This document shows positions 46,884-53,111 of a stretch of 64,000 nucleotides of DNA, in pieces. The stretch lies in NCBI RefSeq assembly GCF_900163865.1, contig NZ_FUKU01000030.1, positions 62,001-126,000 of the forward strand, given 5' to 3'. The position numbers were made by a program, and so were the translations under genes. The notes beneath the pieces are model-generated. The model made no database searches, was not told the origin of the DNA, and was given only the letters and a program-made list of their open reading frames with translations. This DNA is from Sphingobacterium sp. JB170. GTDB lineage: Bacteria > Bacteroidota > Bacteroidia > Sphingobacteriales > Sphingobacteriaceae. Positions within the stretch are counted from its first letter, which is position 1; each line of letters opens with the position of its first letter.

Positions 46884-47306
46884 CTATGCGTTCTTCGCCT
46901 GAAGTGCGAGCGCAAACAATTTCATTTGTTTAACCATCGAGAGTAGCCCATTAGCACGGGTGGGTGAAAGATGCTCCTTCAACCCGATCTGATCTATGAA
47001 ATAAAGATCCGCACTAGACACCTCGCTTGGGGTATGTCCGGAAAGCACCTTCACCATTAAACTGACGAGCCCTTTTGTAATGATCGCATCACTATCGGCT
47101 GTAAATTTAATTTTTCCTTCTACCAGCTCAGCATACAACCACACTCTAGACTGACAACCTTTGATAATAAAATTATCGTTCTTATATTTATCATCTATCA
47201 ACGGAACTTCCTTGCCCAATTGTATGATGTATTCGTATTTCTCCATCCAATCCTGGTAAAAAGAGAAATCTTCAATAAGTTCGTCTTGAATCTCGTTTAT
47301 CGTCAT
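46884..47306 (-). CDS. sufE: SufE-like cysteine desulfuration protein
   Basis: SufE takes sulfane sulfur from SufS for iron-sulfur cluster assembly. The 140-residue protein has the acceptor Cys near residue 51 in FIIKGCQSRVWL, the motif LVEGKIKFTADSDAIITKGL and the closing LSPTRANGLLSMV. It lies 35 bases downstream of sufS on the same strand, as expected for a functional pair. No SufBCD scaffold is in the window. Confidence 0.95.
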   Translation of the reverse strand: MTINEIQDELIEDFSFYQDWMEKYEYIIQLGKEVPLIDDKYKNDNFIIKGCQSRVWLYAELVEGKIKFTADSDAIITKGLVSLMVKVLSGHTPSEVSSADLYFIDQIGLKEHLSPTRANGLLSMVKQMKLFALALQAKNA

Positions 47307-47341
47307 TATTAATTCATATTATTTGAAGCTTTGAGATCGAG

Positions 47342-48565
47342 TTATCTCAACATATCAACCGCCCGTTTCAGCGCCGCGGTCAATATATCAACTTCTTCTT
47401 TTGTATTATACATTGCTAAGGAAACTCGAACCGTCCCGGGGATTCCAAATTGTTCCATTACCGGTTGGGCGCAATGGTGTCCGGTACGTACAGCTACGCC
47501 CAACTTATCCAAAATGACCCCAATATCGTAGGGGTGAATATCACCCACAACAAATGAAATCACAGATGATTTATGGCTTGCCGTACCGATAAAACGAATA
47601 TCTTCTACTTCAGATAACCGTACTACAGCATAGTTCAACAGCTCTTCCTCATAGGCTTGAATTTCTGCAAGACCAATAGCATTTATATAGTCGATTGCAT
47701 CACCCAAGCATATACCTGCTTCTATATTAGGGGTACCTGCTTCGAACTTAAAGGGCAGGTCATTGTAGGTTGTCTTTTCGAAAGTAACATCTTTAATCAT
47801 ATCCCCCCCTCCTTGATAAGGTGGCATAGCGTTTAGTAACCTTTCTTTACCATACAGCACGCCAACACCAGTAGGACCGTACATCTTATGTCCAGAAAAC
47901 GCAAAAAAATCAACATCAAGCTCCTGAACGTCTACGGCAATATGCTGGATCGCTTGCGCGCCGTCGACAAACACGGGCACTTCATACTGATGCGCGACAT
48001 CAATCATCTCCTTGATAGGGTTGATCGTTCCTAAGGCATTTGAAACATAGGTAACGGAAACAAGCTTCGTGCGGTCCGAAAACATCGATTTGTACGCCTG
48101 TTGGTCGAGCTCCCCCTGTTCATTCATAGGAATAACGCGCAGCTTACACCCACGTTCCTCGCATAACATCTGCCAAGGAACGATATTCGAGTGATGTTCC
48201 ATCGCCGAGATTATAATTTCATCATTTTTTTCAATAAACATGCGTCCATAGCACGTAGCCACTATATTTATCGCCTCAGTGGTTCCTTTGGTTATTATGA
48301 TCTCGTGGTCGTATGCTGCATTGATAAGCGCTTGTGCCTTGCGGCGCGTAACTTCGAAAGCATCGGTAGAGATTTGACTTAAATAATGAACGCCTCGATG
48401 AACATTACTGTTCATCTGCGTATAGTAATTCACGATAGCATCAATCACCTGTTTAGGCTTCTGCGTGGTAGCCCCGTTATCTAAGTATACCAGTGGTTTG
48501 CCATTCACTTCACGCTTAAGAATCGGAAAGTCCGCTCTTATATTTTCAATATCAAAATTCTTCAA
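47342..48565 (-). CDS. sufS: SufS-type cysteine desulfurase
   Basis: The PLP enzyme releases sulfur from cysteine. The PLP Lys is about residue 227 in FFAFSGHKMYGPTG, and the persulfide Cys is in VRTGHHCAQPVM. The open frame starts at ATG 48601, but an exact promoter box (TAACTTTG) lies right after that codon. TTG 48565 (MKNFDIENIRADFPIL) is therefore the better start and gives 407 residues, the usual SufS length. It is followed by sufE. Confidence 0.93.
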   Translation of the reverse strand: MKNFDIENIRADFPILKREVNGKPLVYLDNGATTQKPKQVIDAIVNYYTQMNSNVHRGVHYLSQISTDAFEVTRRKAQALINAAYDHEIIITKGTTEAINIVATCYGRMFIEKNDEIIISAMEHHSNIVPWQMLCEERGCKLRVIPMNEQGELDQQAYKSMFSDRTKLVSVTYVSNALGTINPIKEMIDVAHQYEVPVFVDGAQAIQHIAVDVQELDVDFFAFSGHKMYGPTGVGVLYGKERLLNAMPPYQGGGDMIKDVTFEKTTYNDLPFKFEAGTPNIEAGICLGDAIDYINAIGLAEIQAYEEELLNYAVVRLSEVEDIRFIGTASHKSSVISFVVGDIHPYDIGVILDKLGVAVRTGHHCAQPVMEQFGIPGTVRVSLAMYNTKEEVDILTAALKRAVDMLR

Positions 48566-48589
48566 TTTACAAATCGCTTTTATGATATA

Positions 48590-48597
48590 CAAAGTTA
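48590..48597 (-). promoter_or_regulatory. sufS promoter -7 box
   Basis: TAACTTTG on the minus strand matches TAnnTTTG exactly and ends 24 bases before the proposed TTG start. Confidence 0.5.
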
Positions 48598-48730
48598 GCA
48601 TAATAAGCGCTAAAAACGGTTCCCTAGTACACTTTTCTTCACTATCGCTGAGCGTATGTTAGGAATATGACATTCTTCACACGAAATTATTTTATCTAAA
48701 AATTGACAAAGAAATTTAATGCTAATTGGC

Positions 48731-48738
48731 TACCTTTG
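48731..48738 (+). promoter_or_regulatory. Acyl-ACP desaturase promoter -7 box
   Basis: TACCTTTG, an exact TAnnTTTG match, ends eight bases before the ATG at 48747. Transcription should begin at or near the start codon. A TTG at 48703-48705 may serve as a distant -33 element (25-base spacer). Confidence 0.55.
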
Positions 48739-48746
48739 TAGTAGAT

Positions 48747-49739
48747 ATGCAAGAATTACCATTAAATATCCCAGAAGGATCACGCAAAGAGGTGATGGCT
48801 TATATGGAGCCGTTCATGTTAAACGAAATGAGCGAATACCTGAAGCCTGTGGAACAAATGTGGCAACCTGCCGATTTTTTACCGGACTCCTCACGTGATA
48901 CATTTTTTGAAGAAATAAAAGATTTGCAGGAGAGCGCAAGGGAACTTCCGTATGATCTATTAGCTGTCCTTGTCGGTGACACCATTACCGAAGAGGCCCT
49001 ACCAACCTATGAATCCTGGTTAACCATGGTGGAAGATGTTGAAAAAAATGAACAAGGAGGATGGATGAAATGGGTAAGGGCTTGGACTGCCGAAGAGAAT
49101 CGGCACGGAGATTTATTAAATAAATACCTTTACCTTTCCGGTAGAGTAGACATGCGTCAGTTTGAGATGTCAACTCAATACCTCATTCAAGATGGCTTTG
49201 ATATTGGAACGGGAGCCGACCCCTACAGAAACTTTATTTACACCTCCTTTCAGGAATTAGCCACCAACGTCTCGCACAGACGCGTAGCAGGCCTTTCAAA
49301 AAGTTCCGGCGACAGGTTACTCGCGAAGATGTGTGGTGTTATTGCCGCCGATGAAGCACGGCACGCAAAAGCATATATGTCATTCATTACCCATGCGCTA
49401 AAAGTTGATCCAAGCGAAGTCATGCTTGCATTTGAAGACATGATGCGCAAAAAAATTGTCATGCCCGCACACTTTTTACGAGAGGCAGGAGAGCCGCAAA
49501 GTGAAGCATTTTCACATTTCTCCGATGCAGCACAACGCTTAGAGGTCTATACAGCGATAGACTATGTGGATATCTTAAAAACACTCAATGACGAGTGGGA
49601 AATTGATAAAGTTACAGACTTAAATGACAAAGGAGAAAAGGCACGTGACTACCTAATGAAACTTCCCGATCGTCTTCTACGTCTAGCAGATCGTGCTAAA
49701 ATCCCAGAAGCAGAATACAAGTTCAAGTGGATTCTCTAA
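48747..49739 (+). CDS. Soluble acyl-ACP desaturase
   Basis: The plant-type di-iron enzyme inserts a cis double bond into a saturated acyl-ACP. From ATG 48747 (a TTG lies seven codons earlier, inside the promoter) it has 330 residues. The two iron-binding helices carry EENRH at residues 116-120 and DEARH at 202-206, with further Glu near 83 and 170. Electrons must come from reduced ferredoxin, and a ferredoxin and its reductase are encoded just downstream. A terminator separates it from the MarR gene. Confidence 0.95.
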   Translation: MQELPLNIPEGSRKEVMAYMEPFMLNEMSEYLKPVEQMWQPADFLPDSSRDTFFEEIKDLQESARELPYDLLAVLVGDTITEEALPTYESWLTMVEDVEKNEQGGWMKWVRAWTAEENRHGDLLNKYLYLSGRVDMRQFEMSTQYLIQDGFDIGTGADPYRNFIYTSFQELATNVSHRRVAGLSKSSGDRLLAKMCGVIAADEARHAKAYMSFITHALKVDPSEVMLAFEDMMRKKIVMPAHFLREAGEPQSEAFSHFSDAAQRLEVYTAIDYVDILKTLNDEWEIDKVTDLNDKGEKARDYLMKLPDRLLRLADRAKIPEAEYKFKWIL

Positions 49740-49791
49740 AAACATCGAATTTCAATTCTTCCAAAGACGTTACGTTTTAAATATGACATTT

Positions 49792-49819
49792 AAAAGAGGG
49801 GCTTAGACTCCTCTTTTTT
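49792..49819 (+). terminator. Terminator after the desaturase gene
   Basis: AAAAGAGGGG-cttaga-CTCCTCTTTT (10 pairs, one G-U) ends in TTTTTT, 52 bases after the desaturase stop. Confidence 0.85.
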
Positions 49820-49874
49820 GTTTATTGAAATTCTTAATCGTAAATTAGTTGCTGCACTAATAATTGATATGCTA

Positions 49875-50315
49875 ATGGAAAAATACAATCAATACTCATT
49901 TATTTTGGATCAAACCGCGCGTCGGGTAAAACAATATGCACAAACATCATTCGCGCAAAAAGAATTTGATATCACGATTGATCAATGGGGTATTCTAAAA
50001 ATACTTTTCCAGCATCCTGTTCATTACACGCACAAGGAACTCGCCGAATGTTCGGGTAAAGATCAGCCTACATTAACGCGAATTATTGATAATATGATTA
50101 AGAAGAATCTGGTCGAACGTATAGAACACCCAACCGATAGACGTTGTCTACAGATATGTTTGACAGATCAAGGAAAACAAAAGGTAGAATATTTGTCACC
50201 GGAAATCGCACAAATCAGGATGAAGGCATGGGAAAACCTTACGGACGAAGATTTCAGCCATTTTGTACGCATTTTAAACACGATTTATGAGAACTTAAAC
50301 AAGGAGAAAAAATGA
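49875..50315 (+). CDS. MarR-family transcriptional regulator
   Basis: From ATG 49875 (ATG 49869 and an upstream TTG are alternatives) this 146-residue protein is a winged-helix MarR regulator. The recognition region is LAECSGKDQPTLTRIIDNMI and the wing has ERIEHPTDRRCLQI. Its stop overlaps the reductase start by four bases (ATGA), so it heads the reductase-ferredoxin operon. Many MarR proteins sense small hydrophobic molecules. Control of unsaturated fatty-acid synthesis in response to acyl species or oxidants is a reasonable inference only. Confidence 0.92.
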   Translation: MEKYNQYSFILDQTARRVKQYAQTSFAQKEFDITIDQWGILKILFQHPVHYTHKELAECSGKDQPTLTRIIDNMIKKNLVERIEHPTDRRCLQICLTDQGKQKVEYLSPEIAQIRMKAWENLTDEDFSHFVRILNTIYENLNKEKK

Positions 50316-51316
50316 TAACAACAGATATATGTGTCATCGGCGCAGGGCCGGTCGGACTATTCGCCGTATTTCAAGCAGGGTTATTAAAAATGCGCTGCCA
50401 TGTGATCGATGTACTGCCGCAAGTTGGCGGGCAGCTTTCTGAAATATATCCCCATAAGCCCATCTACGATATCCCGGGCTACCCCACAATCAAGGCTCAG
50501 GAGCTTATTGACAATCAAATGGAACAGATCGCCCCATTCGCTCCAACATTCACCCTGGGGGAAAGGGTTGAGCAGGTTAACCGGCAACCAGACGGTAGCT
50601 TTTTGATAAGTGGATCTGCAGGAACGACGATCCGTGCAAACGTCATCGTCATCGCTGGAGGGCTAGGTTGTTTTGAGCCAAGAAAGCCTGAACTGAAAAA
50701 CCTTTCTCAATTCGAAAACAATTATGTACATTATATGGTGCGTACGCCAGAGCATTTCCGCAGCAAAGAAATTGTCATTGCCGGGGGAGGTGACTCCGCA
50801 CTAGACTGGACAATACATCTGGCCGGTATCGCAAAAAAAGTCACACTTGTGCATCGATCTGACACCTTCCGAGGAGCGCCGGATTCGGTGGAAAAGGTTT
50901 ATAAATTAGCCACCGATGGAAAAATCACTCTCCTATTGTCGCATCAACTCCACTCCTTGGAGGGGAACGGGCATCTGGACCACGTTAGAGCCGTCAATAA
51001 ACAAAAAGAAGACGTACAAATTCCAGCTGAATATTTTATCCCGCTGTATGGGTTAAGCCCGAAACTTGGTCCAATTGCGTCATGGGGACTGAACATCGAT
51101 AAGAATGCTATTCCGGTGAACACATTCGACTATTCGACTAGTATCGAGGGAATCTATGCGATTGGTGATATCAATACGTATCCCGGTAAATTAAAATTGA
51201 TTCTGTGTGGTTACCATGAAGCCGCTTTAATGGCACAAAGCGCATTTAAGCAGGTTTATCCAGCACAAAAATTATCGTTCAAATATACGACCGTAAACGG
51301 AATAAATAGTTTTTAA
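50312..51316 (+). CDS. Thioredoxin-reductase-like ferredoxin-NADP+ reductase
   Basis: The 334-residue flavoprotein has the FAD motif CVIGAGPVGLFAVFQAGLL at the N-terminus, an NADPH motif IAGGGDSALDW near residue 160, and IYAIGDINTYPGK near residue 285. It lacks the CXXC redox pair of thioredoxin reductase. This is the pattern of TrxR-like ferredoxin-NADP+ reductases. It ends one base before the ferredoxin gene, so NADPH-to-ferredoxin electron flow is strongly suggested, and the nearby desaturase is a natural end user. Confidence 0.92.
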   Translation: MITTDICVIGAGPVGLFAVFQAGLLKMRCHVIDVLPQVGGQLSEIYPHKPIYDIPGYPTIKAQELIDNQMEQIAPFAPTFTLGERVEQVNRQPDGSFLISGSAGTTIRANVIVIAGGLGCFEPRKPELKNLSQFENNYVHYMVRTPEHFRSKEIVIAGGGDSALDWTIHLAGIAKKVTLVHRSDTFRGAPDSVEKVYKLATDGKITLLLSHQLHSLEGNGHLDHVRAVNKQKEDVQIPAEYFIPLYGLSPKLGPIASWGLNIDKNAIPVNTFDYSTSIEGIYAIGDINTYPGKLKLILCGYHEAALMAQSAFKQVYPAQKLSFKYTTVNGINSF

Positions 51317-51661
51317 ATGGAGGACAATATAATACACATAAACGTTACCGATCGCGACGGAAGCGTTCAAAACATAGAGATTCCAACAGATGTAAATATG
51401 AGTCTCATGGAGCTGCTAAAAGCTTGGGATTATAACATACTGGCGACTTGCGGCGGAATGGCACTTTGTGCGACCTGTCACATTCAAGTTCTCCGGGGAG
51501 CAGAAAATCTGAACGAACCGGGAGATATGGAACTGGACATGCTGGACACTCTCCCTGACGTGACGGATCAGAGTAGGTTGGCCTGTCAATTGCGACTCGG
51601 AAATGAAAATGACAATCTTTCTATACAGATCGAAGGAAGTTTGGCGGACAACCTTAGCTAA
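51317..51661 (+). CDS. 2Fe-2S ferredoxin
   Basis: The 114-residue protein has the CX5CX2C...C cluster motif: Cys45, Cys51 and Cys54 in TCGGMALCATC, and Cys90 in RLACQL. This spacing is of the adrenodoxin/putidaredoxin type, not the plant photosynthetic CX4CX2C type. It starts on the base after the reductase stop, so the two are co-translated. It would carry electrons from the reductase to the acyl-ACP desaturase or to an oxygenase elsewhere. Confidence 0.95.
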   Translation: MEDNIIHINVTDRDGSVQNIEIPTDVNMSLMELLKAWDYNILATCGGMALCATCHIQVLRGAENLNEPGDMELDMLDTLPDVTDQSRLACQLRLGNENDNLSIQIEGSLADNLS

Positions 51662-51694
51662 GTGTATAAAATACACTTAGATTTCGTACTTTTG
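51658..51694 (+). promoter_or_regulatory. NDH-2 promoter with 10-base inverted repeat
   Basis: CTAAGTGTAT-aaa-ATACACTTAG (51658-51680) is a perfect inverted repeat beginning at the ferredoxin stop codon. The exact -7 box TACTTTTG follows at 51687-51694. The repeat would cover the -33 region and so looks like an operator. It lacks a T tract, so a terminator is less likely. Confidence 0.55.
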
Positions 51695-51800: not shown

Positions 51801-53111
51801 ATGTTAACAGATAGGTCAGAACGAAGCTTTCCAAGGGTAATCATTATCGGCGCTGGTTTCGGTGGTGTTGAAGCTGCGCGAAAATTTAAAGATAAAGAAG
51901 TAGAGGTATTGCTGATTGACCGCAACAACTTCCACACATTCCAACCATTAATGTATCAAGTGGCTACAGGTACGTTGGCGGCCGATGCAATCTCCTTCCC
52001 TATACGTAAAATGTTCAAGTCGCAAATGAATTTTCATTTTCGAATGGCCGAAGTTAAAAAGATTGATGAAAAATCTAAAATTGTAACTACTTCAGTGGGC
52101 GATTACGATTACGATTATCTAATTGTCGCGACGGGTGCAACATCAAATTTCTTTGGCAACAAACAAGTCGAAAAATACGCTTTGCCGATGAAAAGCATTA
52201 GAGAAGCACTTGACATCCGGAGTTATGTATTGCAAAATCTCGAGGCAGCTGTACTACGCAAGAATACCAAAGATAGACAGCGGTTTTTAAATTTCGTGAT
52301 AGTCGGCGGCGGTCCAACGGGTGTCGAACTCTCTGGAGCAATAGCGGAGATACAACTTCATATGCTCAAAAAAGACTACCCGGAGCTTTCCACCCATGAG
52401 ATGAATGTCTACCTGGTTGAAGGTACAGACAAAATTTTAGGGGCATTATCGGAGAAATCATCCCAAGATGCATCACGTTATTTGCAAGAACTAGGCGTCC
52501 AGCTGAAATTAAACACGCAGGTAACGGGCTATGATGGCAATACCATAACATTTTCCAACGGCGAAAGCATCGAAACCAAAATAGTTATTTGGGGTGCGGG
52601 CGTAATGGGACAATTTCCCGAAGGTATCCCTGCTGAGATAATCCAGCGTGGAAACAAAATCACGACGGATGGACAATGCCGAGTAGAAGGAATGACGCAC
52701 ATATATGCTATTGGCGATGTGTCCGCAATGATTACGAAACAGAACCCCAGAGGACTGCCCGGTGTCGCTCCAGTTGCACAACAACAAGGGTCCTACGTAG
52801 CGGAACACATCCTTAGTTCCGTCAACGGGCAGAGCTCAGCCGATTTTAAATATTTTGATAAAGGCTCCATGGCGACCGTAGGTCGCAACCGTGCAGTCGT
52901 AGATATGGGGAATTTCCACATGAAAGGATTTTTAGCGTGGCTAACATGGATGTTTGTACATTTAGTTTCTATCTTTGGTTTCCGGAACAGAATGGTCACA
53001 TTTATCAACTGGACCGTTAAGTTTTTTACAAAAAACAGCGGCATACGTTTGATCATAAATAAATATGACAGATCCGCGATTGAGCCGGAATCAGAAATCG
53101 AAAAGAATTAA
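51801..53111 (+). CDS. ndh: Type II NADH dehydrogenase (NDH-2)
   Basis: The single-subunit enzyme oxidises NADH and reduces menaquinone without pumping protons. From ATG 51801 it has 436 residues. It has the FAD motif VIIIGAGFGGVEAARKF at 13-29, the NADH motif FVIVGGGPTGVELSGAIAE near 168, and IYAIGDVSAMI near 310. The C-terminal hydrophobic GFLAWLTWMFVHLVSIFGF anchors it to the inner membrane. An open frame reaches 34 codons further upstream, but the promoter box at 51687 and the lack of similarity argue against it. Confidence 0.94.
   Translation: MLTDRSERSFPRVIIIGAGFGGVEAARKFKDKEVEVLLIDRNNFHTFQPLMYQVATGTLAADAISFPIRKMFKSQMNFHFRMAEVKKIDEKSKIVTTSVGDYDYDYLIVATGATSNFFGNKQVEKYALPMKSIREALDIRSYVLQNLEAAVLRKNTKDRQRFLNFVIVGGGPTGVELSGAIAEIQLHMLKKDYPELSTHEMNVYLVEGTDKILGALSEKSSQDASRYLQELGVQLKLNTQVTGYDGNTITFSNGESIETKIVIWGAGVMGQFPEGIPAEIIQRGNKITTDGQCRVEGMTHIYAIGDVSAMITKQNPRGLPGVAPVAQQQGSYVAEHILSSVNGQSSADFKYFDKGSMATVGRNRAVVDMGNFHMKGFLAWLTWMFVHLVSIFGFRNRMVTFINWTVKFFTKNSGIRLIINKYDRSAIEPESEIEKN

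Follow-up and report, generated by a model that had tools for sequence, protein, structure and literature searches.

Gene content of the locus

We analysed a locus of Sphingobacterium sp. JB170 in which a gene for a soluble acyl-acyl carrier protein (acyl-ACP) desaturase (DES) is followed by genes for a MarR-family regulator, a ferredoxin-NADP reductase (FNR) and a [2Fe-2S] ferredoxin (Fd). The window, by which we mean the whole 64-kb stretch of DNA that was analysed (G000:C50:62001-126000), belongs to a genome of ~4.4 Mb. Open reading frame (ORF) analysis and Pfam searches place the four genes at 48747-51661 of the plus strand; SufS-SufE diverge upstream of DES, and genes for a type II NADH dehydrogenase-like protein (NDH2) and PolX lie downstream of Fd. 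All four ORFs are present with a Pfam match for each, in agreement with the initial annotation of this DNA, which had read them as a self-contained desaturase module under MarR control. The features are as follows.

48731-48738, plus strand: TACCTTTG, DES promoter box of the Bacteroidota -7 type, with TTGAC at 48703 (position, genus comparison)
48747-49739, plus strand: DES, soluble acyl-ACP desaturase (PF03405), 330 amino acids from the ATG (Pfam, structure match, ExxH motifs)
49792-49817, plus strand: terminator-like hairpin with a T run, between DES and MarR (hairpin scan, genus comparison)
49845-49865, plus strand: TTAGTTGCTGCACTAATAATT, conserved MarR-linked element and candidate operator (genus upstream comparison, weight matrix)
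49869-50315, plus strand: MarR-family regulator, 148 amino acids (Pfam, 51.4 bits)
50312-51316, plus strand: TrxR-type FNR, 334 amino acids, no CxxC (structure matches)
51317-51661, plus strand: adrenodoxin-type [2Fe-2S] Fd, 114 amino acids (Fer2, 30.9 bits)

The longest DES ORF opens at TTG 48726, and the start is likely to be ATG 48747, which lies 8 bases past the TACCTTTG box and is conserved in the genus. Position 48731, previously given as the start of the feature, is the first base of that box and no start codon. A TAnnTTTG-like box is found just 5' of the DES ATG in most genus loci, and TAnnTTTG is described as the sigma-A -7 consensus of flavobacteria in a passage of PMC9723704. For MarR, ATG 49869 is the most likely start, not TTG 49818. 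The last three genes overlap or abut as had been noted, with a 4 bp overlap between MarR and FNR and direct contact between FNR and Fd. Gaps inside MarR-FNR-Fd are 0-26 bp in most genus loci, and we infer that the three genes form one operon.

A terminator had been proposed to separate DES from MarR, and the genus comparison agrees: a hairpin with a T run occurs in 23 of the 29 genus loci that have DES-MarR adjacency, with unrelated stem sequences. The region contains 7 terminator-like hairpins compared with 4.1 +/- 2.1 in shuffles, so a single hairpin is weak by itself. The best explanation of this arrangement is that DES and MarR-FNR-Fd are two independent transcription units side by side.

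A conserved element precedes MarR and not the desaturase

To compare the locus across the genus we used 60 MarR loci, out of 75 MarR-bearing genomes among the 93 genus genomes searched. Just before MarR these loci share the pattern TTA-n-TTG-nnnn-ACTAA-nn-ATT, the core of which is present in 59 of the 60 upstream regions; the exception (L069) has a near variant. Searches of other upstream regions on the forward strand found the core in 0/56 for DES, 0/65 for NDH2, 1/54 for SufS and 0/53 for PolX, and on the reverse strand it occurs in 1/53 PolX upstreams, where 0.5-0.8 would be expected in those upstreams from shuffles. When a weight matrix is built solely from sites of other genera, its best score in the window is 23.1, at position 49841, and the next best is 11.8. 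A stricter form of the pattern matched 45 times in 44 of the 93 genus genomes; 44 matches lie at MarR and the remaining one, in G028, lies elsewhere, whereas the reversed control pattern gave 0 matches in the same genomes. The JB170 genome has one exact match to the stricter pattern, which overlooks sites that are otherwise spelled. The element is doubled, with copies ~26-30 bp apart, in 12 of the genus loci (L071, L072, L074, L078, L079, L081, L082, L084, L085, L086, L125 and L128).

The same association is seen in 100 FNR loci, made up of 20 hand-picked loci and the best 80 of 595, a sample that leans towards relatives and includes a few genomes twice (e.g. L149/L169 and L139/L173). The core is found in 25 of the 27 FNR loci with MarR (24 when the off-position match in L175 is set aside) compared with 3 of the 73 without it (expected 1.0), indicating that the element goes with MarR. 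The L175 match, at -113, is not the element, and a variant with other spacing lies nearer to the start; the matches in L164 and L184 are also off the usual -20 position. Together, MarR and the element span Sphingobacteriaceae, Belliella, Algoriphagus, Nafulsella and Cesiribacteraceae.

The proposal that the MarR protein controls unsaturation is not borne out at the desaturase gene, since the element is missing from every DES upstream and occurs essentially once per genome. MarR could still affect unsaturation indirectly, via ferredoxin supply.

DES and the MarR-FNR-Fd genes are separable

Adjacency of DES and MarR is not peculiar to this strain, so that the single-strain pattern which would have counted against the initial annotation is not seen. 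Of the 60 genus loci, 29 have DES <700 bp upstream of MarR; in another 7 the distance is 1.2-11.4 kb, and in the remaining 24 DES falls outside the locus. Beyond the genus, DES and FNR are neighbours in 0 of 76 genomes among the matches listed (149 DES and 104 FNR entries, with some DES at contig ends), and none are closer than 145 kb; the two genes share a contig in 14 of these genomes and lie on different contigs in 62. Within the 100 FNR loci, Fd adjoins FNR in 73, MarR is upstream in 27, NDH2 is downstream in 12 and DES is present in 3, all Sphingobacterium.

Presence and absence of the genes give a similar picture. In 60 genus genomes, JB170 included, DES is found in 57 and FNR in 51. Seven congeners carry DES with no detectable FNR or Fd (G002, G003, G020, G023, G035, G051 and G058), G032 (85% complete) has the MarR-FNR-Fd triple with no DES, and G037 and G056 have neither DES nor FNR. 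Where the triple is absent, NDH2 directly adjoins DES in 6 of 7 such genomes, with the sequence unbroken. On a tree built from DES, SufS and SufE, at least 3 changes are needed to explain where the triple is absent and 6 to explain DES-MarR adjacency; both are clustered on the tree (0/500 shuffles as low), which is a quick one with several weak forks. In 250 genomes of the order, DES is present in 243 and FNR in 191: both genes occur in 188, DES only in 55, FNR only in 3 and neither in 4.

A self-contained module is therefore not what the comparison supports, given the DES-only congeners, the repeated losses on the tree, the 55 of 243 DES genomes of the order that have no FNR, and the lack of any DES-FNR neighbours in the genomes compared outside the genus. 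These results suggest that contact between DES and the triple is a gene-order trait of part of the genus rather than a sign that the genes form a dedicated module.

Two further observations concern the assemblies. At L110 (G038:C1:3495000-3508000) both DES and FNR are split by frame breaks, possibly from sequencing error or decay, and second and third FNR copies, partly broken, lie elsewhere in the same genome (G038). In genus group g41, DES is <2 kb from a contig end in many assemblies, where an extended repeat, for instance an rRNA operon, may adjoin.

Identity of the four proteins

DES matches FA_desaturase_2 at 459.5 bits against a cut-off of 22.7 (Pfam, 337-residue reading from TTG 48726), and the castor stearoyl-ACP desaturase 1afr matches residues 21-329 with E 3.6e-100. 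The di-iron site of soluble acyl-ACP desaturases, which is formed by two ExxH motifs and two further glutamate ligands, is represented by ENRH at 117 and EARH at 203, counted from ATG 48747; both motifs noted in the initial annotation are thus present. The match to the plant enzymes (castor delta-9 18:0-ACP, 1afr; ivy delta-4, 2uw1) is full length, and conservation extends to iteealpty, eenrhg, sfqe and deArh as well as both ExxH motifs, with TEEALPTY and SFQE of DES in the alignment. DES differs from the plant proteins in being bacterial, and no transit peptide was seen. By homology, DES is predicted to make unsaturated acyl-ACP from O2 and ferredoxin electrons.

FNR matches Pyr_redox_2 (88.6 bits, Pfam) and the structures 5ygq (2e-107), 3ab1 (7e-73) and 3lzw (2.3e-70), and its closest named relatives are in S. 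wenxiniae, Sphingobacterium sp. SGR-19 and S. haloxyli. It has four cysteines in all and no CxxC, and for this reason it is not a thioredoxin reductase; the TRX_reduct model likewise gives 123 bits, below the cut-off of 343.45. The C-terminal region is conserved in 14 aligned relatives. Fold family, length and lack of CxxC are shared with the TrxR-type FNRs (5ygq; 3ab1 of Chlorobaculum; 3lzw of Bacillus; RpFNR of R. palustris), a class described in a passage of PMC9137726. Unlike these known enzymes, the JB170 FNR has its gene in one predicted operon together with those of MarR and an adrenodoxin-type Fd. In a set of Flavobacteriia-type loci (L226, L231, L232, L234, L238, L239 and L241), FNR comes after genes for an Mrp/NUBPL ATPase, a NifU-domain protein or both, which suggests an Fe-S role in those genomes.

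The only cysteines of Fd are at 45, 51, 54 and 90 (C45-x5-C51-x2-C54...C90) and are invariant in 15 aligned relatives. Fd matches 3hui (1.8e-13), adrenodoxins and putidaredoxins, and shares their C-x5-C-x2-C...C motif. In contrast to the setting of those ferredoxins, there is no P450 gene among the annotated neighbouring proteins, and Fd also differs from the plant-type ferredoxin usual for acyl-ACP desaturases. The plant desaturases are fed by a chain of NADPH, ferredoxin reductase and ferredoxin, according to a passage of PMC8002970. The protein identities make an NADPH to FNR to Fd chain, as used by soluble acyl-ACP desaturases, plausible in JB170. To that extent the electron chain proposed in the initial annotation stands, and its dedication to DES is unsupported.

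The alignment of 10 MarR relatives contains no invariant cysteine, so MarR is not OhrR-like in thiol sensing, and a one-cysteine sensor of that type was rejected. We also rejected a FabT-like fatty acid regulator, as the FabT model gives 24.3 bits (cut-off 200) and DES has no MarR element. The arrangement resembles the autoregulated operons of MarR, OhrR and FabT, with the regulator gene first and a conserved element by its start. It departs from the OhrR and FabT types in the lack of an invariant cysteine, the low FabT score and the weak dyad in the element.

Other electron donors for the desaturase

Fer2 matches in the JB170 genome are Fd, a PaaE-like fusion of FAD, NAD and Fer2 domains (L047 1468-2511, minus strand) and a NuoG-like protein. 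It is possible, though doubtful, that DES draws its electrons from elsewhere than Fd, chiefly from the PaaE-like fusion. The fusion is present in 55/55 sampled genus genomes and in 212/250 of the order (E <= 1e-40). It also occurs in 5 of the 7 DES genomes without the triple, and the other two, which are outside the sample, have a Fer2 match of similar size. A precedent for such a donor is Rv3230c, which reportedly (Chang and Fox, 2006) serves the membrane acyl-CoA desaturase DesA3 as its NADPH oxidoreductase. Yet the fusion shows no gene linkage to DES, and it is missing in 38/250 order genomes, so that we rejected it as a universal donor. At the thresholds used, both FNR and the fusion are missing from at least 8 order genomes with DES, among 20 listed of the 38 fusion-negative genomes, indicating that further donors exist.

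Flanking genes and alternative groupings

Three features flank the two units.

47342-48601, minus strand: SufS-like cysteine desulfurase, divergent neighbour of DES (NCBIfam sufS, 590.5 bits)
51660-51678, plus strand: palindrome AAGTGTATAAAATACACTT, over the NDH2 promoter region, a separate candidate operator (genus comparison)
51801-53111, plus strand: NDH2, type II NADH dehydrogenase-like protein (Pyr_redox_2 and NDH2_C; Pfam)

SufS is divergent and <500 bp from DES in 51 of 56 DES loci, a set that takes in L109 from another family, and SufE and SufS (46884-48601) are divergently joined to DES in nearly all genus loci. No SufS match lies beside DES in the fetched region of 12 DES loci of other genera. 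The linkage therefore looks genus-specific, and SufS-SufE was rejected as an ancestral partner of DES.

The longest NDH2 ORF opens at TTG 51699, and the gene probably starts at ATG 51801. NDH2 lies within 500 bp after Fd in 58 of the 60 genus MarR loci. In addition, MarR-FNR-Fd-NDH2 occurs with no DES at six loci of five other genera (L136, L138, L139, L140, L141 and L149), with ~20-50 bp between Fd and NDH2 in four of them. This order is what would be expected if the real unit were MarR-FNR-Fd-NDH2, a redox-balance or stress set linking the NADPH, ferredoxin and quinone pools, a reading that we regard as unlikely. NDH2 in the genus has a promoter-like box of its own and, in 56 of 65 upstreams, a palindrome similar to AAGTGTATAAAATACACTT, even where MarR-FNR-Fd is missing. 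Furthermore, the MarR element is found at none of the NDH2 upstreams, and across the phylum NDH2 adjoins few of the 100 FNR loci, as counted above. GTGTA-N5-TACAC occurs once in the window. The palindrome was considered as a MarR site and rejected, as its sequence differs from the element and it is present where MarR is absent.

A role of FNR-Fd in Fe-S cluster assembly or sulfite reduction is, in our view, still less likely. In keeping with it, FNR of Flavobacteriia-type loci is preceded by the gene for an Mrp/NUBPL ATPase in 6 loci and by that for a NifU domain protein in 6, and siroheme/TauE and PAPS reductase genes flank FNR in 4 loci each. The best NCBIfam model for Fd is fdx_isc, though at 47.8 bits it falls well below the cut-off of 132.1. 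However, these gene contexts are absent in the family of JB170, and the SufS-SufE genes here accompany DES, not MarR-FNR-Fd.

Finally, it is very improbable that FNR and Fd exist for DES with MarR tuning membrane unsaturation, as the initial annotation had it: one-strand adjacency in 29 of the 60 genus loci, kept over a clade, the chain of the plant enzymes, the lack of any free-standing Fer2 protein besides Fd in the genome and, in L144, a membrane desaturase next to FNR-Fd all speak for it, but they are set against the seven DES congeners lacking FNR and Fd, the DES-free triple of G032, the 55 DES-only and 3 FNR-only genomes of the order, the absence of the MarR element at all 56 DES promoters and the separate terminator.

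Discussion

Overall, our results are probably best accounted for by two neighbouring units: a general NADPH-to-ferredoxin operon under autoregulation by MarR, and DES, which is one possible client of that operon. DES would be transcribed from its own promoter to its own terminator. MarR would bind the conserved element, which sits between the promoter and the MarR start codon, and may thereby keep its own operon repressed until some signal lifts the repression. Judged by homology only, FNR would take electrons from NADPH and hand them to the [2Fe-2S] Fd. Fd may then act as a general electron donor, with DES perhaps one client in this strain, and MarR would not be expected to act on the DES promoter.

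Several observations weigh against this account. The dyad symmetry of the MarR element is weak, with 7.25 symmetric pairs in the genus vs 6.57 in shuffled sequences and 6.61 vs 6.51 outside it; a clean palindrome was accordingly rejected, the symmetry being hardly above that of shuffles. The left half of the element also resembles a -7 box. In view of the weak dyad and this resemblance, binding of MarR to the element is something that we infer. With respect to the client, no further free-standing Fer2 ferredoxin was found in the JB170 genome, in a search for Fer2 proteins that took in neither 4Fe-4S ferredoxins nor flavodoxins, and this favours Fd as the donor of DES in this strain. In another family (L144:5614-7980, minus strand), a gene for a membrane-type fatty acid desaturase (PF00487) precedes FNR-Fd by 64 bp and runs in the same direction. 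The points that favour a direct link to DES are these last two and the adjacency in part of the genus.

We found no report of 'acyl-ACP desaturase' together with Sphingobacterium or Bacteroidetes in the open-access literature, outside which most subscription papers lie. Nor was a description of a MarR-FNR-ferredoxin operon found in the open-access literature among the matches listed.

It is difficult to say which proteins supply electrons to bacterial acyl-ACP desaturases, and the assignment usually leans on neighbouring genes. In this case gene order misleads, as the donor operon has been lost repeatedly while the desaturase was kept. The parts of the locus are ordinary; what is new is a MarR element with apparently a single target, a sharply defined sequence by which a ferredoxin-reductase operon can be recognised in two bacterial orders. 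We tentatively propose, as something close to an even call, that this MarR is a repressor with apparently one target per genome, MarR-FNR-Fd, and that it is conserved along with its element, whose consensus is about TATATTTGTCACACTAATTATTG, in lineages ranging from Sphingobacteriaceae to Cytophagales-type genera. Such a repressor would constitute an undescribed switch that sets the flow of NADPH into the general ferredoxin pool, and membrane desaturation may be one consequence where no other ferredoxin competes.

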